Shown here: piece after piece, positions 52,004 to 62,464 of the stretch | How the letters are laid out: every line of letters begins with the position of its first letter | Numbering within the stretch: position 1 is the stretch's first letter | NCBI GenBank assembly: GCA_029937545.1 | Contig: JAPYPR010000002.1 | Location: 62,001 to 126,000, forward strand | Length of the DNA stretch: 64,000 bases | Direction: 5' to 3' | Origin: Erythrobacter sp. | Lineage (GTDB): Bacteria; Pseudomonadota; Alphaproteobacteria; Sphingomonadales; Sphingomonadaceae | Program-made: the position numbers and the translations under genes | Notes under the pieces: model-generated | The model's database searches: none | Seen by the model: the letters and a program-made list of their open reading frames with translations, nothing else | Told to the model about the DNA's origin: nothing

Positions 52004-52029
52004 AATGGCTCCCCGAGTGGGATTGCAAC
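52004..52029 (-). repeat. tRNA-Asn 3'-end-like fragment (putative att site)
   Basis: AATGGCTCCCCGAGT identical to the 3' end of tRNA-Asn at 62388-62402, followed by GGATT and AAC. Confidence 0.65.
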
Positions 52030-52426
52030 TCTTGCCTATACCTGCTCGTCTCCCCAGCCGGGGCGAAGTCGTGGGTCTTGCGGGTGCAGGTCGGTGGAAG
52101 GCGCACAGACATCGGGTTGGGTTCGCTCGGGGCCTATGGGCTGGCGGAGGCTCGGGACCGGTCGCGCGAATTGCGGAAGGCAGCAAAGCAAGGGCGCGAT
52201 CCGGTTGCGGAACGGGATAAAGACCGCCGCCGCGTTCCTCTCGATGCATGTTCATCCGAAGATCGGCAATTTACGGGTCGATGGTATTGTAGAGCGCGAT
52301 GTCGCTGCGGCCCTGTCGCCTGTATGGCAAACGAAGCCCGCGCTCGCGAAGAAGCTACGTCACCGTATCAGGCTTGTTCTCGATGCTTGGGGACGGTATG
52401 CCGCTGCGCAAGGCGCTCTCGCTTAG
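52027..52426 (+). pseudogene. decayed phage-type tyrosine integrase (DUF4102/P4-like N-terminal region)
   Basis: NSCLYLLVSPAGAKSWVLRVQVGGRRTDIGLGSLGAYGLAEARDRSRELRKAAKQGRDPVAERDKDR, frameshift, then MHVHPKIGNLRVDGIVERDVAAALSPVWQTKPALAKKLRHRIRLVLDAW; catalytic domain absent. Confidence 0.85.
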
Positions 52427-52496
52427 TCTGCTAGGCCGAGCGAGACTTCCCAAATTGTCCCGCTCGATCAACGCGCCGTCGGATGGGAGGATTTTA

Positions 52497-52791
52497 GGTT
52501 TCGTGGACAAAGCATGACCGGGGACTCGGTCGCTGATTCAAGGCTGGCTTTTGGAGGCGGGCTTGGGCGAGCGGATCGGCTTTACAGACGAGGAATGGGA
52601 CCTGATCGGGCCGCTGTTGCCGCCTGAGCATGGTCGTGGATGTCGACCAGCGCAGGATAACCGAGCGGCTGTTCAACAGACTCAAGAACTGGCGCAGGGT
52701 CGCGACACGCTACGACAAGACCAGGGAATCCTACCTCGGCTTCGTCGCGCTCGCCTCAGGCAAACTATGGATACCCTTTGTCCACAAAACC
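52497..52791 (+). mobile_element. internally deleted IS5/IS427-like element (about 295 bp)
   Basis: Terminal IRs GGTTTCGTGGACAAAG / CTTTGTCCACAAAACC flanked by TA; inside, ERIGFTDEEWDLIGPLLPPEHGRG and RRITERLFNRLKNWRRVATRYDKTRESYLGFVALA transposase ends. Confidence 0.85.
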
Positions 52792-52805
52792 TAGCAGTGA
52801 CGTGC

Positions 52806-54407
52806 TCAGTCGACAACGGCCTCGAAGGTAATGGCGATGGTTTCGCCGGCCGCCAGGCTATCGAGGCTCGCGCGGATCTCGCCGCTGGTAAGATAGGCGG
52901 CCCCTACCGGATCCGTTTCATCGGCGCCGGCTGCATCATCGTCTTCCGCAATGGTGGTGGTGTCGCACGCTGAACCGGACCGCAGGGTTCCGTTTGAGTA
53001 TGTGACCCCTGCCGGCAGGGTATCAGTCATGAGAACGCCAGATGCTGCCGTGTCGCCGGTGTTCGATGCGATAAGGCAATACTCGATGCGCGCTCCCGGG
53101 ATGTAAAAATCAGTATCTCCGATTTCTACTGGGTCGCCGAGAAGCCTGCTTGTCTTGTCGAGCAATACCGTCGTCGTCGGACGACAGAATGTGATGTCGT
53201 GGATGGCGATCCCTTGCTGCCCCGGGTCGGCCGGCGCCGCGGAATGATTGCCGTAGGAAACGATGATCCGGTCGACCGGCTGACTGAAGGTAACGACGAC
53301 GTTCCCGAAGCTGGAATCACTGTCGGACGCGCCGTCACCATACGCACTGTTTCCGATCACGTAGTTCGAATTGCCATTCGTGAGCGTGGGAACAACATTT
53401 GCCCCTTGATACCGCCCTTCTACGGTCACGAGATCCGCAAACTGCCCCGGGTTGCTGTCGACATCGAATATGGTGAATTGGGCCCCACGCATGATCGCGG
53501 GCAAAGTAATGGTCGTAACGGCGCGCCCGGCCCTCGATGGCTGGTCTGCGACCTGCCCGAGCGAGAACTGGGCGGGGGATATGCCTCCCGTGAACCCGTT
53601 CTGCCTAGCCGGAGACTGCCCGCCGAACGTCGCATTATTGAGCCAAGTTCCGTCGGTTGTCAGGTTGAAGCCGATGTTCCCAAGGGCACCGAGTGGATAG
53701 GTGTTGCTCGTTGTGCCCGCAGTCCAAGTAACCGCATCCCAATCAAATAGGATCGTCTGGTTGGGGCAGGTTAGCGCTGGCGCGACTCCAGCTTCGCGAA
53801 CCGAGTCTAGATATAGGTCAGACCGTAAAAACGTCCCGTTGTATGCAGTCGGGGAAAGGTCGCAAATTTCTAGACGCCAGGTTCCAGCTGCATTCTGGCC
53901 GTTGAAAGCCGAGAGGGCTGCCCGCGGGCGAAACGTGTTCTGGTAGGGAGGAGCCGTCGTAGCATGGCTAGCCCATGCGCGGTCGCTATTCACCAATTGC
54001 GTTGCGGCGTCGTCTAGCAGGACGTTAAAATTATTGCCCCTGACATTGCTCGTATCGTCGTTGGTCAGTTGCACGCGCGTACCCGTAGGGGATTGCAAAG
54101 TGAATTGCAGGTCTCCACGCCAAGTATGCGTAGCCAGAATGCCGATGTTTACATCTGCGACTGTAGCACTCGAGGTCACGATGAAGTTGCGTACCAAAGG
54201 ATTGGTGCAAACGGTCGTGCCGTCGATGGTGCCGTTCGTCGTATTCGAATACGTCGACGAAATCTGAGCCGCCGCCGGGGTCGCGTTCAGCATCATCGAA
54301 AGGCCGAGAACCAATAGTGCAATCAAGTATCCGAGATGAACTCGAAGCCTCGATACCGGGGCGCAACAAGAATGTGGTTGGCGGTCGATCGTCGTCAGCG
54401 TGTTCAT
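52806..54407 (-). CDS. secreted P-domain (proprotein convertase P/Homo B) + DUF11-like protein
   Basis: ADVNIGILATHTWRGDLQFTLQSPTGTRVQLTNDD...AAGTWRLEICDLSPTAYNGTFLRSDLYL; C-terminal ARIEYCLIASNTGDTAASGVLMTDTLPAGVTYSNGTL...IAITFEAVVD*. Confidence 0.8.
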   Translation of the reverse strand: MNTLTTIDRQPHSCCAPVSRLRVHLGYLIALLVLGLSMMLNATPAAAQISSTYSNTTNGTIDGTTVCTNPLVRNFIVTSSATVADVNIGILATHTWRGDLQFTLQSPTGTRVQLTNDDTSNVRGNNFNVLLDDAATQLVNSDRAWASHATTAPPYQNTFRPRAALSAFNGQNAAGTWRLEICDLSPTAYNGTFLRSDLYLDSVREAGVAPALTCPNQTILFDWDAVTWTAGTTSNTYPLGALGNIGFNLTTDGTWLNNATFGGQSPARQNGFTGGISPAQFSLGQVADQPSRAGRAVTTITLPAIMRGAQFTIFDVDSNPGQFADLVTVEGRYQGANVVPTLTNGNSNYVIGNSAYGDGASDSDSSFGNVVVTFSQPVDRIIVSYGNHSAAPADPGQQGIAIHDITFCRPTTTVLLDKTSRLLGDPVEIGDTDFYIPGARIEYCLIASNTGDTAASGVLMTDTLPAGVTYSNGTLRSGSACDTTTIAEDDDAAGADETDPVGAAYLTSGEIRASLDSLAAGETIAITFEAVVD

Positions 54408-57400
54408 CGGCCTAGTCCTAGGAAGCTGAAGCTGTCGGCATCGAACTTCAGGCGGAAGCTGGCGTAAACACCCTCGTCGGTGTTACGCGCGGCGCTGAAG
54501 TCCTCGTCGCGGAAGCCGGACACATTGTAGCCGACGCTCAGCAGCATATCGTCTGCCGGAACGAAGCCGATTTCCGGACCGAATGCGAAGCTGGTGTAGC
54601 CATCGGTAAGGCCGCTGCGCACAGTCGCTCGCCCGCCGACTTCGAAGCGCTCGCCGATGCCGATACGGGCATCCAGTCCGCCGAGCAGCGTCCAGCCCGA
54701 AGCGTCGTAGCCTTCGAAGCTGTCGAAATTGTATCGCGTGCCGACAAACACGCCGATTTCGGTGCGCTGGAAAAGTCCGCCATCGTCTTGGTCGTAGCCG
54801 CGCGGCGACCAGTTCGTCGAGAGGCTGCCGATAAGACGGCGCGATTTTGCCTCGCCATCCACAGTCAGGGCCGTCCGTCCAGCTGGCCCGGTCTCGCCCG
54901 CGACCGCGCCGCGCACTTCGTCGCTACGGTATTCGATCTTGGCGAGGAAAGCGAAGGGCGACTCGTCCGGGCGATGGGCGATCGCGATCGCGCCGTCCAT
55001 GATCTCGCTCATCGCACCGAAATCGTCTTCGGCATTGGTCCAGGTAAAGCCGGAGCCGACCACGCTGCCTTCACCGAGCTGGCGGATAGCGCCGAAGGTC
55101 AGGCCCTTGCGATCGGCCTGTTCGCCATCGCGATACTCGCCGCGGAAATTGGCGGCCCAGCGATCTTTGCGCCAGGTCCCGCCGGCGGTGATGGCGACAA
55201 AGTCCTCGAACAGCTGGCCGTCCTGGCCAAGATGACCGCCACTGGCGACCGGGTGGAGCGGATTGATCGCCTTGCCCGGATCGACGCCGCCGATCTGTCG
55301 GTTTCCATCGACGGTGAAGTCGACCGTGAGGTTGCTGGTCACAGGCAGGCTTTGCGCCAGCCCGAAGGCAGCGAAGGAGCGGGGACCGTATTCGGAGATC
55401 GTTTGTTGGCCCAAGGTGCCGGTGACGCGTGCGCCCGCCCACGGAGCGAGCTCGATGCCGCCCTGCACCGTGCGTGCGTCGATCGCTTCACCCTCGGCAA
55501 TCTCGTAGCTACCGATCAGGCGGATGGCATTGGTCAACGCATAGCGCGCGCCGAAGCGGTGGCGGGTCGGAAGATCGATGGAATCGGTATTCTCGAGCGC
55601 GATGCTGGTGCTGGCGTTCAGTTCCAGCCGGTTGTCGAGCAAGCGCTGGCTGGCGCCTGCTTCGAGCACGGTCGAGGAACCGGTCGTGCCGTCCTGGAAA
55701 CGATCGGAGAAGTGGGCGATGCCGAGGCGCAGGTCGGTCGCCTGCGAACGCCAGGTCGCCTGCACCTGCACCGCATTGCGGCGCGCCGCGTCGGTAAGGC
55801 TGTCGTCGCGCCAGGCACTGCCGGTCACGATGAGTTCCTCGGTGACCGAATAACGTGCATCGACACCCACCTTGGTGCGGCCCCGCTCGACGGCGTTCTG
55901 CTGTTCGACACCGTAGCCTTCTTCGATGCTGCGAGCATACGCTAGCACATCGAGCTTGCCTGTGTGATGTTCGGCTTCGACCTGCCAGGCAGCCTTGGTT
56001 TCGCCTTCGCTTCGGCTGGCGCCGATCTCGGCACGGACTTCGGTCGCAGAGCCGATCCGGGCGCGCACATCGGCGGCGACGATTTCGGTCCGCGGACCGT
56101 CGCCCTTGTCGGTAACGGCGCTGGCGCCGATGCGCAGGTTGCCGTCCGCCAAGGTGACGTCGGTGCGAACGCCGGCGTTGAGCTCGCCCGACGAGGTCAG
56201 CTGGTCGATTTCGTAATCGATGACGATGAATTGCGGGTTGAGATCGAAATCGCGGCTCAGGACCGGTTGCGTAAAGGTAATCGTGCCGGACAGGATGTCG
56301 ATGTCGTAATCGACGAACCGCTCGAGTTCGCGGCGTTCGACGATGATTTCCGAGCGGAAGCGGTCGCGGGTCTCGATGGCAACGCGTTCGGAATTAATGA
56401 CGATCGCGCGGCTGGACAGGCGGTAGGGGCCTGACAGACCGTTGCCCTGGATCTCGTCGCGGCGGAAGCGGGTCTCGGTTTCGGCTGCGAAACCCTGGAC
56501 GTGCAGCTTGCCGAACCGGCCTTCCGCTTTCACGCCGGTGGCGGCGCGGTCGTAACGGGCGAGGTCGGTCTGGTCGAAACCGGTGCGGAAGTCGCCGTAG
56601 ATTGCGTAGAAGCTCTCGGTTTCGACGCGGACGTAAAGCTTGCCGCGGCTGGCGGCATCGAAGCGGCGCGTGGAGCCATCGCCGTATACAGTGTAATAGG
56701 CGTTGGGATCGATCGTGCCTTCGAGGCGCTGCTCTTCGCGCTGCTTGGCGCTGTCATAGGCGGCCGTGACGAGGAATTTACCGAGCACGCGGCCCTTCGC
56801 ATAAAGCGCCACGCGGGCCTCGTCGCCAAGATCGCTGTCGAAGCGCCCGGTACGCTGCATGTTGTCCGCGACGGTGCGCGCGCCCGCCGAGCCTTCGGCA
56901 AGGCCGACGACCGTCCAGGGCTGGTCACCCGGCACCATCCAGCCCTCGATTTCCTGGGTGCGCGTAATCTGGCGGTCGGTAAAGCTGAACTGCAGATGGA
57001 GCGGGCCGCTGACCATCGTCGGTGCCAGTTCGATCAAGGCTACGCCGTCATCGCCTTCGACCGTCCAGGTCGGCGATGCGCCGCCGAGGCCGGTCAGCTG
57101 GCGCAGCTGCATTGCTTCGATCGCCTGCGCGCTCTCGTAGGGCGCATTGATGGCAACGCTGCCGCTGACGCCGCTGCGAACCGGGCGGCCCTTGCGGTCG
57201 GTGATACGCACCGCGAGCACCGGCTTGTTTTCACCGTCGGCCACCAGACGCGAGCGAGCGTCGATGAGTTCGGCCTTGGCAGGGGCGGCGGCGAAATTGA
57301 CGCTACGCTCAAGTGCGGCAATCTCTTCGCCGTTTGCGGAAAGGACGCGCGCGGTCAGGCTTGTGACCTCGGATTCCAGGGCGACGCCGCGCCAGACGCT

Positions 57401-59449
57401 GACCGCATAAGTGCCATCGGCGGACTTCTTCACGCCGTCGAAAGCCAGCGGATCGACGCGCTCGCCATTGGCCGACAGTTCGACCTTCTCGCCGACCTCA
57501 TGGCGGATCGCCACACGCACCGCCGGAGCGCGCGGATTGTGGCCGACTTCGGGGAAGAGAAATTCGGTCGGCCCATCGCCAACAGCGGTCCAATCGATGT
57601 CTGCGCCGGCGGCGGCCGCGTCCTCGAGGGGGGTTTCATCGCCTTCGGGGGAGGGCGGAGCCCAATCCGCAGGCAGTGTCGCATGAAAATCCGCGACCAC
57701 GAGGCTGCCGCCTTGACCACGCACGAAGCGCGAGTTCGTCGCCCCCGCGTTGGCCGTCGAGCGGCTGCAATCGACGAACGTACCGCCGTCGGGAAGGGTC
57801 TGCTCTTGCGCCTGGACCACATGCGTGCCGGGCATCAGCCCCTCGAAGTGATAGCGGCCGTCGCGGTCGGTGATGGCGAAGCTGCCGTCCTCGAGCATGA
57901 CTCGCACACCCGGGATCCCGCGCCGCGCGTCTTTCAACACGCAGTCGCCTTCGGTGATCCGTCCGATCAGCGTCATGCGATCGGCAATGATGTCACGCTC
58001 CACCCGCAGGCTGGCCGTGGCCGTAGTCACGTCTCCGCGACTGTCGACGATGTCGGCTCGGTTCTCGATCACCCCGGGAGGCGCATCTGCACGAATGGTC
58101 ATGGCATAGGTTGCGCGGCGGCTCTCTCCGGCAGGGATGTCACCGAACGCGATCTTGAGTTCGCGGCCATCCGGGCTGATTGCAACCTGATCGTCCTCCT
58201 CTTCGCCATCGATACGAATACTGTCACGGCGGAGGCGCAACCAGGGGGAGGGCCTATCGGTGACGATGACATCGCGTTTTGTGCCGATCGTATCCGGATT
58301 GGAGACCGTGACCACATAAAACACGACGTCGCCGGGCGCGGCGATCTGGCGCGACGCGGTCTTGGTGATGTCGAGCGTGACCAGCGGACGATCAAGCGGG
58401 ATATCGAACTCTACTGGCCCCCCGTCGGCCAGGGTGAAAGCGTTCGAATAGGAACCGTCAGTGATGATGTAGCTCTCGCCATCGGGACGGTTGAACGGCG
58501 CAAGTTCTGCCGGTGTCGCTTCCGAAGGCGCCGTGTATGGCGCAGGAGGCTGGATCAGCAGACGATAGGTTCCAGCCGAAAGCACCGGGAAGCGGTACTC
58601 ACCCGGCGCCAGCGGGAAGGTGCTGCCATCGGCGAGCGGAATGGCGCTGCCGCTGACTACGGTGGAGGGCCACGCGGTTACACCGTCGTCTGCAAAAACG
58701 GTCGCAGGCTGGCCGGTCGCGGCGTCGATGATCGTGACACGCGCCCCATTCACCAGGTTTCCGTCTTGGCTGTCGAAAACATAACCAAACGGGTTCGAAA
58801 TTGCAGCGACGATGGTGGAAACGATCGGATTGCCGGTCGGACCGGGGTACGAAATCGTAATGTCGTCGCCGGAGCGCAGCGAGAGGACGCAGTCGCCCTG
58901 CCCCGGCGCCGGCGGGATCGAAGTCGTGGGAACTGCACCGACAAATTCACCCGTATTCTCGCCGGTTTCAAAGATTGTCAGCCGCTCTTCGTCGCCGGAT
59001 TGGGTGGAGATCACAACTTCGATGGAATCGATGGCGGAGGGGTCGCGATTGGCTCTCCTGGTGTTGATGCTAAAAAACAGCGTCTGACCGATGCGAATTT
59101 CATTAGTAGCATCGAGCGCGATCGGTGCGGTGTTGGCCGCTCCGCCGGTCATGAACGACATGTCGATCGGCGTTCCACCACACAGCGACGGAGATAACGG
59201 GTACTGCACGCCGCCGGTTGGCGAAGGCACGAATGTGCCGATTGTCACCGGGGTATCGTCGATTTCCAGGGTAACTTCGTTGGAGGTTGTCGCGCCCGGA
59301 AGGTCGCCGCTGCGCCAGCTGGCTTCGGCGATATTCGTAATGACACGAACACCGTCCGCGGTTTGAGCATAGGCCGGAACCAGCACGAAAAGCAGCAGCA
59401 ATCCGAGGAATGCCACTGCCTTTCGCGAGAGGTTCAGGTCGACGACCAC
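54404..59449 (-). CDS. 1681-aa surface protein: DUF11/Ig-like modules, carboxypeptidase-regulatory-like domain and C-terminal outer-membrane beta-barrel
   Basis: Signal peptide; VTLDITKTASRQIAAPGDVVFYVVTVSNPD DUF11; GIPGVRVMLEDGSFAITDRDGRYHFEGLMPGTHVV; YYTVYGDGSTRRFDAASRGKLYVRVETESFYAIYGDF; alternating C-terminus ending GVYASFRLKFDADSFSFLGLGR. Confidence 0.8.
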   Translation of the reverse strand: MVVDLNLSRKAVAFLGLLLLFVLVPAYAQTADGVRVITNIAEASWRSGDLPGATTSNEVTLEIDDTPVTIGTFVPSPTGGVQYPLSPSLCGGTPIDMSFMTGGAANTAPIALDATNEIRIGQTLFFSINTRRANRDPSAIDSIEVVISTQSGDEERLTIFETGENTGEFVGAVPTTSIPPAPGQGDCVLSLRSGDDITISYPGPTGNPIVSTIVAAISNPFGYVFDSQDGNLVNGARVTIIDAATGQPATVFADDGVTAWPSTVVSGSAIPLADGSTFPLAPGEYRFPVLSAGTYRLLIQPPAPYTAPSEATPAELAPFNRPDGESYIITDGSYSNAFTLADGGPVEFDIPLDRPLVTLDITKTASRQIAAPGDVVFYVVTVSNPDTIGTKRDVIVTDRPSPWLRLRRDSIRIDGEEEDDQVAISPDGRELKIAFGDIPAGESRRATYAMTIRADAPPGVIENRADIVDSRGDVTTATASLRVERDIIADRMTLIGRITEGDCVLKDARRGIPGVRVMLEDGSFAITDRDGRYHFEGLMPGTHVVQAQEQTLPDGGTFVDCSRSTANAGATNSRFVRGQGGSLVVADFHATLPADWAPPSPEGDETPLEDAAAAGADIDWTAVGDGPTEFLFPEVGHNPRAPAVRVAIRHEVGEKVELSANGERVDPLAFDGVKKSADGTYAVSVWRGVALESEVTSLTARVLSANGEEIAALERSVNFAAAPAKAELIDARSRLVADGENKPVLAVRITDRKGRPVRSGVSGSVAINAPYESAQAIEAMQLRQLTGLGGASPTWTVEGDDGVALIELAPTMVSGPLHLQFSFTDRQITRTQEIEGWMVPGDQPWTVVGLAEGSAGARTVADNMQRTGRFDSDLGDEARVALYAKGRVLGKFLVTAAYDSAKQREEQRLEGTIDPNAYYTVYGDGSTRRFDAASRGKLYVRVETESFYAIYGDFRTGFDQTDLARYDRAATGVKAEGRFGKLHVQGFAAETETRFRRDEIQGNGLSGPYRLSSRAIVINSERVAIETRDRFRSEIIVERRELERFVDYDIDILSGTITFTQPVLSRDFDLNPQFIVIDYEIDQLTSSGELNAGVRTDVTLADGNLRIGASAVTDKGDGPRTEIVAADVRARIGSATEVRAEIGASRSEGETKAAWQVEAEHHTGKLDVLAYARSIEEGYGVEQQNAVERGRTKVGVDARYSVTEELIVTGSAWRDDSLTDAARRNAVQVQATWRSQATDLRLGIAHFSDRFQDGTTGSSTVLEAGASQRLLDNRLELNASTSIALENTDSIDLPTRHRFGARYALTNAIRLIGSYEIAEGEAIDARTVQGGIELAPWAGARVTGTLGQQTISEYGPRSFAAFGLAQSLPVTSNLTVDFTVDGNRQIGGVDPGKAINPLHPVASGGHLGQDGQLFEDFVAITAGGTWRKDRWAANFRGEYRDGEQADRKGLTFGAIRQLGEGSVVGSGFTWTNAEDDFGAMSEIMDGAIAIAHRPDESPFAFLAKIEYRSDEVRGAVAGETGPAGRTALTVDGEAKSRRLIGSLSTNWSPRGYDQDDGGLFQRTEIGVFVGTRYNFDSFEGYDASGWTLLGGLDARIGIGERFEVGGRATVRSGLTDGYTSFAFGPEIGFVPADDMLLSVGYNVSGFRDEDFSAARNTDEGVYASFRLKFDADSFSFLGLGR

Positions 59450-59462
59450 GATCCAGGAGCCG

Positions 59463-60530
59463 TCAGTCTATGATGGCCTGGAAGATCAACGTGCGGGTTT
59501 CGCCCGCAGCGATGTTATCGAGCGTACCGGACACACGAGGATCCGCGTAGGACCCGGTTCCGGTTGCGCCGCCAACATCACAATCGGTGCTGTTGGTGCT
59601 GACCGGGAAGTTGGCATCAGTATAGGAGAGGTCTGCCGGCACGTCGTCGGTCACGGTGACGCCGGTTGCCGTGGCACTCCCCGCCGAGTTCGTTACGGCG
59701 ATACAATACTGGATCGTCGCTCCCGGAATGGCCTTGGGGTTGCTGGTGCCGCTGACAGGATCTTCGACGACGAAACTCGTCTTGGTGACTGTCAGATCGG
59801 CCGCCGAAACGACATAGTCGTCAGCTGCCGAGAAAGAGCCATCGTACTGGGCGTCCGTTTCGCCAGCGCCGTCGGCGAGCACGGTATCGACCACAGCCGC
59901 ATCGTTAGTGGCGGAGGTGGTCAGGAGCGCACCCTGGCTTCCCGGAGTATTGCCGGCATAGGCCGTCGCCGTCAGGATAACCGTGGCGACATCGCCGCTT
60001 GCGAGCGGTGTGGTACCCGGGGGACGGGTGGCCGGAATATTGGCGACCACGAATACCGTCCGGGTTTCGTCTGCCGCTAATTCGTCGATGTATGTGACCG
60101 GTGTCTCGTCGTTCCAATCGCCATCATTGTCGGTGTCGATATAGAACGTTTCGCCGGTCGTATTGAAATTGTCCGTCCCGTCGATTGCGCCCGCGCCGCC
60201 ATCCTGCTGAGCAACGCTGAGCTCGAAGTCGGCGACATCGTTCGACAGGTTGGTAACCTGGAAAGTCGTCACCTGCTGGGTCGCACCCGGTGCGACGATG
60301 GTTTGCGTTCCACCAACCTCTACAACGGTCAGATCGACCTTGCGGTCGACGAGAAATTCATCGGTGTCTTCCTGGTCATCCTGCGCGACACCGCCAACCG
60401 AGTAAGACACCGTCACGGTGTTCTGGATGGATGTGCCGGCATCAGTCCCCGCGGCCAAGGCCGGGGAGGCGCCGAGAGCGACAAGTGGTATTGCACTTAC
60501 CGCACCCAGCAATTTGCTGGTACGTTTCAT
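59463..60530 (-). CDS. secreted DUF11-like repeat protein
   Basis: MKRTSKLLGAVSAIPLVALGASPALA; DLTVTKTSFVVEDP...GATIQYCIAVTNSAGSATATGVTVTDDVPADLSY; ends RTLIFQAIID*. Confidence 0.8.
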   Translation of the reverse strand: MKRTSKLLGAVSAIPLVALGASPALAAGTDAGTSIQNTVTVSYSVGGVAQDDQEDTDEFLVDRKVDLTVVEVGGTQTIVAPGATQQVTTFQVTNLSNDVADFELSVAQQDGGAGAIDGTDNFNTTGETFYIDTDNDGDWNDETPVTYIDELAADETRTVFVVANIPATRPPGTTPLASGDVATVILTATAYAGNTPGSQGALLTTSATNDAAVVDTVLADGAGETDAQYDGSFSAADDYVVSAADLTVTKTSFVVEDPVSGTSNPKAIPGATIQYCIAVTNSAGSATATGVTVTDDVPADLSYTDANFPVSTNSTDCDVGGATGTGSYADPRVSGTLDNIAAGETRTLIFQAIID

Positions 60531-60601
60531 GGTCTCGAACCCTCTGTTTTAATGGTCGCGCCTGTCAGCGCCCGCGACCTGCGGCGCGTTTCCTCCGCCG
60601 G

Positions 60602-61072
60602 TTAGCGGACGATCCCGTAATAGCTGAGTTCACCGCTTTCGCCCGGCGCGACCTGTGCCAGGACCCAGCGGATGTGCGTCACGTCGGAGAGCTCCGCAGG
60701 TCGCCGGCCAGCGTCGGAATCCGGAACGGCGAGGCGATCGAGAGTGGCAAAGGTTCCCCCCCCGTCGACCGACACTTCGAAACTGTCGTCCAGTTCGGCG
60801 AGCCGCACTGCCGAAGGCAGCGGATTGGTCACGACGAAGTTCTCTGCCGCCGCGCTTCCGCCGTTCGCATAGCTGGTGGTGAAAAGAAGGCGGTCGCCCG
60901 GAACCACGCCCTCGGGGGCGGCAAGGGTCGTGCGTGATTGCCCGTTTTCGACCGTCGTGCGCTCAACTTTGACATCGCTCGACAGAGCCACATCGTTCTG
61001 CGCGGTCGCGGGGGCGGAAAAGCCGAGCGTCATGCAGGCCAGACCGAAGCTAAGTGCGAGTTTCTTGTTCAT
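60602..61072 (-). CDS. small secreted DUF11-like protein
   Basis: MNKKLALSFGLACMTLGFSAPATAQ; VVPGDRLLFTTSYANGGSAAAENFVVTNPLPSAVRLAE. Confidence 0.75.
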   Translation of the reverse strand: MNKKLALSFGLACMTLGFSAPATAQNDVALSSDVKVERTTVENGQSRTTLAAPEGVVPGDRLLFTTSYANGGSAAAENFVVTNPLPSAVRLAELDDSFEVSVDGGGTFATLDRLAVPDSDAGRRPAELSDVTHIRWVLAQVAPGESGELSYYGIVR

Positions 61073-61093
61073 GTTGATTTCCTTGCGGTCGAA

Positions 61094-62071
61094 TTAGTCG
61101 ACGACGACGTCGAAGGTGACGGTGTAGTCGTTGCCGGAGGTCACGGTCCCGACATCGACGCTGACCCCCGTTGCACTGGCTTCGCCCGCATCCGCGTCGG
61201 CGGCGTCGGTCAGTGCCGCACCGTCGAGCGTCAGTGTGCCGGCTTCGTAAGACGTGAAGGTCGGGAAATCGTCGGTGATTACGAAGTTGTCGAACGACCC
61301 GGTGCCCGTGACTTCCGCCACGATGGTGAAGGTCACGATTGCGCCTGGAACCGCTTCGGTACCGCCGAAGGGATCGGCGACGGTGGCCGATTTCACGAGC
61401 GAGACCTGCGCGACGCGAGCGATCAGCGAGCCGTCTGCATCTGCATCAGCATTGGTTAAACCGACTACGGCATCGCTGCCACCTTCGCCTTGGCCTGCAA
61501 ACGTCGTACCCGGGGTACCGGTGCCGGTGACTGCTTCTGCAAGCAGATTTACATCGCTCGTCTGCCCATCGGTCACGCCACCGGGGGACGATACAAGGAC
61601 GAAGACGGTTAGCGCTTCGTCGGCATCGAGCACGGGCGAAGCCTCGCCTGCGCCCAGCACGACATCGACACCTTCGTCGTAGACGCCATTTCCGTTCGTA
61701 TCGTAAGCTATGCCGTCGATAGTAACATCGAAGTCATTTCCGGTTCGACCGGGATCGGCAGTGAGATTGAATGCTTCCGGTCCATTGCCGGTATTGGTAA
61801 CTTCATAGGTGAGGACTGCGGAAGCATTGCCGATGGGCACGGCGCTGCCATCTTGCCACGTCGTAGTGACGTTCAGCAGTTCGTCCACCTGGACTTCGAC
61901 CGGGTTCGAGACGACGGTGCGCGGCGTCACCCCGCCATCGTCATAAGTCGCAGTCGCGATGTTTTCGATGATCGAGCCTGCAGGCACGCCATCGGCAAGT
62001 GCGGGCGAGGCAGCAAGGAGGGTGGCAAGGGCCAGCGTGCTGGCGGCGAGCTGATGGTGATGGTTCTTCAT
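61094..62071 (-). CDS. secreted DUF11-like repeat protein
   Basis: MKNHHHQLAASTLALATLLAASPALA; SLVKSATVADPFGG...GAIVTFTIVAEVTGTGSFDNFVITDDFPTFTSYEAGTL; ends YTVTFDVVVD*. Confidence 0.8.
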   Translation of the reverse strand: MKNHHHQLAASTLALATLLAASPALADGVPAGSIIENIATATYDDGGVTPRTVVSNPVEVQVDELLNVTTTWQDGSAVPIGNASAVLTYEVTNTGNGPEAFNLTADPGRTGNDFDVTIDGIAYDTNGNGVYDEGVDVVLGAGEASPVLDADEALTVFVLVSSPGGVTDGQTSDVNLLAEAVTGTGTPGTTFAGQGEGGSDAVVGLTNADADADGSLIARVAQVSLVKSATVADPFGGTEAVPGAIVTFTIVAEVTGTGSFDNFVITDDFPTFTSYEAGTLTLDGAALTDAADADAGEASATGVSVDVGTVTSGNDYTVTFDVVVD

Positions 62072-62360
62072 GCAGCCGTAGTGCATGAAAAGGGTAAACG
62101 AACCGTTAGAAAGTACGCGTTTTCACCTAGGGTGCCGGTAAAGGGGGTCTAATATTTTGCTGCCAGCGCATGGCAGAGCGCGTTGCGCACCTGCTCAACC
62201 CATTTTCGAGATCGAATGCAGACAGTCGGCTCTCCACTCAAACCCAGACATTCGCACATCTTCTGGGCCCAGCCCAAAGAGCACTCCGAAACCGAGAAAC
62301 ATTCCCTGCCCGATGTGGTAAACAAGGTGGGAGCGAATTGTTGTAGAGCCTGCGTCGGCG

Positions 62361-62390
62361 ATTCATTTCAACGCCTTAGCGGAAATGAAT
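62361..62390. repeat. inverted repeat directly abutting tRNA-Asn 3' end
   Basis: ATTCATTTC-aacgccttagcg-GAAATGAAT. Confidence 0.7.
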
Positions 62391-62464
62391 GGCTCCCCGA
62401 GTTGGATTCGAACCAACGACCAAGTGATTAACAGTCACCTACTCTACCGCTGAGCTATCGGGGA
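62390..62464 (-). tRNA. tRNA-Asn(GTT)
   Basis: Minus strand TCCCCGATAGCTCAGCGGTAGAGTAGGTGACTGTTAATCACTTGGTCGTTGGTTCGAATCCAACTCGGGGAGCCA. Confidence 0.95.

Follow-up and report, generated by a model that had tools for sequence, protein, structure and literature searches.

The 64,000-nucleotide stretch of DNA analysed here (the window; all coordinates are positions within it) comes from a marine Erythrobacter-like bacterium and contains five consecutive minus-strand open reading frames (ORFs), here called g1 to g5 (Table 1). The intergenic gaps calculated from the coordinates are 21, 71 and 13 nt for g1/g2, g2/g3 and g3/g4, respectively, and g4 and g5 overlap by 4 nt (ATGA); an alternative ATG start for g1 is located at 62086. 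The N termini of all five proteins are signal-peptide-like, as read by eye, and searches with Pfam and NCBIfam place DUF11 domains over or close to the cut-off in g2, g3, g4 and g5. The DUF11 domain of g1 is sub-threshold in these searches (TIGR01451, 23.3 bits vs a cut-off of 24), while the median score of g1 orthologues is 36 bits with a tandem-DUF11 profile made from other proteins. A preliminary description of the locus as five consecutive minus-strand genes with short gaps and an ATGA overlap, each encoding a signal peptide and DUF11-type modules, is consistent with these results. All the Pfam DUF11 matches in this genome lie within this cluster.

Table 1. Genes of the cluster and the domain regions discussed in the text, with positions in the window
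Feature	Position	Strand	Description	Basis
g1	61094..62071	-	Secreted two-domain subunit, 325 aa; putative donor hairpin, Ig-like domain and C-terminal incomplete DUF11 as putative acceptor	ORF; 51/51 synteny
g2	60602..61072	-	Secreted single-domain protein, 156 aa; predicted incomplete DUF11 only	
g3	59463..60530	-	Secreted two-domain subunit, 355 aa; putative donor and acceptor	
g4	54404..59449	-	Putative donor-only protein, 1681 aa	
g5	52806..54407	-	Putative acceptor-only protein, 533 aa; P-domain, linker region and C-terminal DUF11, predicted incomplete	
g1 putative donor hairpin	61871..61996	-	Residues 26-67	Hairpin profile
g3 putative donor hairpin	60333..60455	-		Hairpin profile, hhalign, completion test
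g4 putative donor hairpin	59255..59353	-	N terminus of mature protein, residues 33-65	Hairpin profile
g1 putative acceptor	61097..61417	-	C-terminal DUF11, apparently without last hairpin	
g3 putative acceptor	59466..59804	-	C-terminal DUF11, apparently without last hairpin	
g4 internal complete DUF11	57974..58390	-	Positions 2-104 of 114	Pfam, just under cut-off
g4 outer-membrane barrel region	54407..57007	-		AlphaFold2 model, Foldseek, Pfam MtrB_PioB

The order g1-g2-g3-g4, on one strand, was observed at all 51 same-family loci examined. Full-type g4 homologues are present in 64 of 201 same-family genomes, nine further genomes having only paralogous-barrel or fragment matches to g4, and a g3 profile applied at a cut-off of E ≤ 1e-20 also selects 64 of the 201; on comparing the lists by eye, the two sets of genomes are identical. 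The invariant order and the identical distribution of g3 and g4 place the cluster far beyond chance. A genome scan yielded 483 confirmed g4 relatives, and among 80 named Sphingomonadales loci, from Erythrobacter, Qipengyuania, Novosphingobium, Parerythrobacter, Pontixanthobacter and others, departures from the g1-g2-g3-g4 order were due to contig ends or to a few copies that are broken. Among the named relatives, the one nearest to the window g4 comes from an uncultured Erythrobacter and is 97% identical over 1062 aa. Full-length g4 was also found, in a phylum-wide sample, in another class, which is probably the Gammaproteobacteria; there the four genes occur in order at two loci (L181 and L182), and a variant arrangement, g2-g3-g3-g4, also exists. 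Co-occurrence in a fixed order holds for g1 to g4, which make up the conserved unit; g5, the fifth gene, is variable and can be unlinked. One genome (G015) has two unlinked g1-g4 cassettes (L043 and L044). At locus L048, and apparently also at L135, g1 is in two reading frames, and at L154 g1-g3 are broken up with g4 still open; these cases possibly represent decay.

The operon in the window lies entirely within a 10.4-kb segment bounded by a 26-nt direct repeat (88%) of the 3' end of tRNA-Asn, at 52004-52029 and 62388-62413. Integrase remnants (Arm-DNA-bind_3, Phage_int_M) are present at 52078-52434, and the segment looks like a decayed tRNA-associated island. The remnant of an IS4/5-family transposase, with apparent inverted ends, is located directly 3' of g5, at about 52514-52795. 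At the loci numbered L031-L089 the cassette is often near a tRNA gene, the type of which (Pro, Thr, Tyr, Met, Asp or Ser) differs by genome, suggesting repeated mobility.

Comparison of the DUF11 domains of the cluster with complete ones, using a 144-position profile of 43 tandem domains taken from other proteins, reveals that the C-terminal domains of g1, g3 and g2 end at median positions 97, 97 and 93, respectively. In g5-type proteins the median end position is 127 for internal DUF11 copies but 97 (maximum 105) for those at the C terminus, which leave a median of 1 residue to the end of the protein; internal and C-terminal copies of the g5 type differ likewise with Pfam. In the window itself, the Pfam DUF11 model is matched over positions 8-83 of 114 by the g3 C-terminal domain, 15-74 by that of g5 and, under the cut-off, 13-72 by g2. 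The internal DUF11 of g4 orthologues matches a 140-position profile from end to end. The same pattern was found in the other class, in which most of the subunit C-terminal domains stop at 97-98 of 144 and the domain of g4, being complete, runs to 135-139. Judged from these alignments, the C-terminal DUF11 domains of g1, g2, g3 and g5 are incomplete, ending ahead of the last β-hairpin. The last residues of the subunits form a β-strand, which has the C-terminal motif F-x-x-x-[IV]-[DN]-COOH; the g3 acceptor domain ends with this motif. The same g3 domain contains two almost invariant cysteines, suggesting a disulfide, and both g1 and g3 have acidic DxNxNG-type loops (e.g. DTNGNGVYDEGVD in g1 and DTDNDGDWNDE in g3) that look like calcium-binding loops.

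The mature N termini of g1, g3 and g4 share a motif, approximately G..I.NtA.a.Y..gG....SN.V...V, and the hairpins that contain it are homologous by hhalign (E values of 1.7e-13 for g1-g3, 6e-14 for g1-g4 and 3.4e-8 for g3-g4). Because the motif resembles the pattern in which complete DUF11 domains end (consensus '...GDHTNTANAESSTDDGDPVNNTATATVTV'), the N-terminal hairpin was tested for its ability to supply what the C-terminal domain lacks, by appending the g1, g3 and g4 hairpins to acceptors from the same genome, with shuffled hairpins and random segments as controls. The mean gains with the g1, g3 and g4 hairpins, respectively, were +8.6, +5.1 and +3.3 bits for the g1 acceptor, +8.0, +4.2 and +2.5 bits for the g3 acceptor, and +10.5, +6.6 and +3.3 bits for the g2 acceptor, with the end of the match being shifted by about 34-43 profile positions; shuffled hairpins changed the score by -1.7 to +0.9 bits and random segments by -0.8 to +0.6 bits. 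With Pfam DUF11, the C-terminal domain of the window g3 scored 37.0 bits alone, 40.8, 41.6 and 39.8 bits with the three hairpins and 35.1 bits with a control segment, the match end moving from position 83 to 99-100 of 114 on adding the hairpins. When a profile of the g4-internal DUF11 was used, the gain with the g1 hairpin held, that with the g3 hairpin was small or absent on some acceptors, and there was none with the g4 hairpin. A short hairpin-only profile, run on g1 and g3, was not discriminating, and hhalign comparison of the hairpins alone, which are short, with the DUF11 profile gave no significant match; the g1 hairpin showed a weak alignment (E 0.074) to positions 110-138, where it was expected. 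The significance of the hairpins derives from completion and from the homology among them, not from standalone scores.

A profile of the hairpin matches 52 of 52 g1, g3 and g4 proteins, as it must by construction, and at E < 1e-3 none of 52 g2 proteins, none of 29 g5 proteins and none of the unlinked homologues of g5 described below. Since a complete DUF11 match is regained on joining the segments in silico, but not with the controls, the proteins can be partitioned such that g1 and g3 look like donor plus acceptor, g4 like a donor only, and g2 and g5 like acceptors only. The split of the domain, its register, this partition and the strict co-occurrence of the genes are the elements that have support from the sequences. 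The finding that g1 and g3 each hold both halves of a DUF11 domain also accords with an intramolecular permutation, in which the hairpin of g1 or g3 completes the DUF11 domain of its own chain. The products would be closed monomers, present around the barrel as individual periplasmic or surface proteins and not as a polymer. In either subunit the hairpin could indeed fold back onto the C-terminal domain of its chain, and the AlphaFold2 model of mature g3, which is all-β, is confident, also in the hairpin region (pLDDT 94.4; Foldseek matches are mainly generic Ig-domain proteins, e.g. integrins). Mean-field coevolution analysis with 122-125 sequences gave a noisy mixture of hairpin-D1 and hairpin-D2 pairs. 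An intramolecular permutation leaves g2 and g5, which have no hairpin, and g4, which has no unfinished end, unaccounted for; further, a two-domain subunit of a tandem array would be expected to have its ends at opposite poles. We therefore regard closed monomers as unlikely. As intramolecular pairing fits g1 and g3 only, and the remaining proteins require partners, a chain is the simplest reading, with g5 or g2 as the tip, g1/g3 as the shaft and g4 as the base.

The fifth gene is a variable component of the system. In many genomes a g5 of about 390-860 aa, shorter in a few, lies 3' of g4; in some Novosphingobium loci a g5-like gene is upstream of g1, and elsewhere none is present at the locus. 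Several genomes lacking an adjacent g5 have an unlinked gene, encoding about 640-730 aa, in which the match to g3 is limited to the C-terminal domain. The N termini of g5 proteins comprise a P-domain, a complete DUF11, a Calx-beta-like domain or an unassigned region; the window g5 has a Pfam P_proprotein match at 84-188. In g5, which has no hairpin, this variable N terminus may be a tip adhesin. The window g5 appears to be without one internal DUF11 found in its relatives; we rejected truncation by the insertion-sequence remnant that follows it, because the protein ends with the C-terminal motif of the family.

The g4 protein consists of the hairpin, an Ig-like region, the complete DUF11, a CarboxypepD_reg/SdrD_B domain, an Ig-like domain and a large C-terminal barrel. 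The preliminary description had the 1681-aa protein apparently ending in an outer-membrane barrel, and this is supported by a weak Pfam MtrB_PioB match at the C terminus, just over the cut-off, by an AlphaFold2 model of residues 620-1681 from 51 sequences (mean pLDDT 78), which has about 30 long strands, and by the best PDB matches of the model with Foldseek, which are large outer-membrane barrels (SlpA/SDBC, LptD, SprA, MtrB and FimD). With TM scores near 0.2, these matches support the fold class only. Searches of PDB sequences gave nothing useful, and the orientation of the barrel was not evident from the loop lengths in its model. Residues of about 1000-1080 form a highly conserved insertion, located in the portion that g4 has in common with the paralogous barrels; this insertion might, speculatively and by analogy, act as a plug. 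These paralogues occur at two-gene loci (L077-L084, L090 and L193-L197) in several families and another class, where a large SdrD_B/DUF11 protein adjoins a barrel protein of about 1200-1500 aa that is a part-length relative of g4; the pair is a two-gene relative of the fused g4.

The nature of the barrel bears on three further readings of the locus. That its top Foldseek matches are Deinococcus SlpA/SDBC chains would suit a coat, in which g4 forms an SlpA/SDBC-like barrel complex and the small Ig proteins make up a layer rather than a fibre; given that the TM score is about 0.2, that the architecture differs and that the donor/acceptor partition suits linear polymerisation better, we consider such a coat quite unlikely. 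It is improbable, too, that g4 is a self-contained, autotransporter-like adhesin with its own Ig/DUF11 passenger, and with g1-g3 and g5 as accessory or folding factors: although it has the passenger-then-barrel order of classical autotransporters, and a large SdrD_B/DUF11 protein adjoins a related barrel at the paralogous loci, its barrel has about 30 strands vs 12, it matches no autotransporter family, g3 is as obligatory as g4, and the subunits carry the hairpin of g4. The MtrB_PioB match might be taken to indicate ordinary transport, with g4 as an MtrB/PioB-type large porin or electron conduit and its neighbours unrelated. The cluster contains no cytochrome gene, the N-terminal half of g4 is an Ig/DUF11 region, and its linkage to the DUF11 subunits is invariable, all of which makes a transport role highly improbable.

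Overall, we think it probable that the cluster encodes a head-to-tail fibre of split DUF11 domains, with g4 as the base, g1 and g3 as the shaft and g5 as the tip. After the signal peptide, g1 and g3 would each start with a β-hairpin that matches the final two strands of a DUF11 domain, and the DUF11 domain at their C terminus would be missing this pair of strands, such that the hairpin of one subunit would fit the unfinished C-terminal domain of the next to give a continuous string of complete DUF11 domains. The base would be g4, because it has a hairpin, no unfinished end and a large outer-membrane barrel at its C terminus; g5 and its unlinked homologues, having an unfinished domain and no hairpin, would be placed only at the far end, as tip adhesins. 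The lone unfinished domain of g2 might serve as a cap, or as a periplasmic protector of the hairpins. We infer that the pairing is intermolecular, that its product is a surface fibre and that the g4 barrel functions in anchoring or export. The earlier suggestion of the barrel protein as an anchor for the small subunits thus gains partial support, the N terminus of g4 carrying the hairpin that is common to g1 and g3. An isopeptide bond between the strand-A lysine, which is invariant in g1 and g3, and the C-terminal Asp/Asn (37/52 g1, 45/52 g3) is a guess, since complete DUF11 domains, too, have this lysine as their consensus and some of the C termini are Glu/Gln.

The proposed arrangement resembles the chaperone-usher pili (type 1 and P pili), which have incomplete Ig-fold subunits, each completed by the N-terminal donor of the subunit that follows it, a donor-less two-domain tip adhesin and a large barrel at the base, with the same polarity. 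The differences are that the donor is one strand there and a proposed two-strand hairpin here, that the subunits are pilins there and DUF11 proteins here, and that, unlike in those pili, the barrel protein (g4) itself carries a donor. The PapD-type chaperone (PF00345), for which a control search was positive in E. coli, and the usher (PF00577) are both absent from the whole genome; g4 has no usher match with Pfam, FimD being only a distant Foldseek neighbour. Unfinished Ig subunits usually require a dedicated periplasmic chaperone; the cluster system has none. Nor was there a match to an autotransporter family (type Va, Pfam) in the cluster, or to sortases or sorting signals among the five genes with Pfam and NCBIfam, consistent with the preliminary reading that no sortase or usher gene is adjacent. 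Type V pili of the Bacteroidales are donor-strand-based fibres at the outer membrane, formed from lipoprotein precursors by protease-activated donor strands. The donor-strand idea is alike, but the lipidated precursors and the families are without counterpart here: none of the five genes has a Pfam match to the FimA/Mfa1-type families, and, on inspection of the sequences, their predicted cleavage sites lack a lipobox cysteine. SprA of the T9SS translocon and Deinococcus SlpA/SDBC are, like g4, very large outer-membrane barrels, without useful sequence similarity in PDB searches.

DUF11 is described as a stalk-type domain of fibrillar adhesins and secreted surface proteins (PMC9210967); fibrillar adhesins are single-chain, vs the split subunits here. 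The protein GhlA of Litorilinea aerophila is a giant single chain with 49 DUF11 domains, which are ten-stranded, that forms an extracellular filament, and related grappling-hook proteins are giant proteins that form beads-on-a-string DUF11 filaments (PMC13319060). A string of DUF11 domains is proposed here too, but the present system would use short split-domain subunits and a barrel. Archaeal threads (Saci_0406) are built by head-to-tail donor-strand complementation, with an assembly thought to be distinct from chaperone-usher (PMC9715654); they belong to another protein family, their donor is an N-terminal tail and not a DUF11 hairpin, and neither an outer membrane nor a barrel is involved. 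We found no published account of the cluster system in the open-access literature, in keeping with its initial classification as a candidate undescribed system. Tentatively, and with less confidence than in the fibre itself, it may constitute a separate fibre class, with split DUF11 domains completed by hairpin donors, no PapD chaperone, a barrel of ~30 strands as both base and assembly platform, and interchangeable acceptor-only tips that are possibly encoded elsewhere.

Given the 483 confirmed g4 relatives, it seems that an envelope system which is both conserved and widespread has stayed unnamed. If the split-domain reading is true, it represents an independent route to donor-complemented fibres and would give each gene of the cluster a role, as base, shaft, cap or tip. 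The signature that it defines, i.e. an unfinished C-terminal DUF11 and a matching N-terminal hairpin, would then reveal the tip adhesins of Erythrobacter, Novosphingobium and their relatives.
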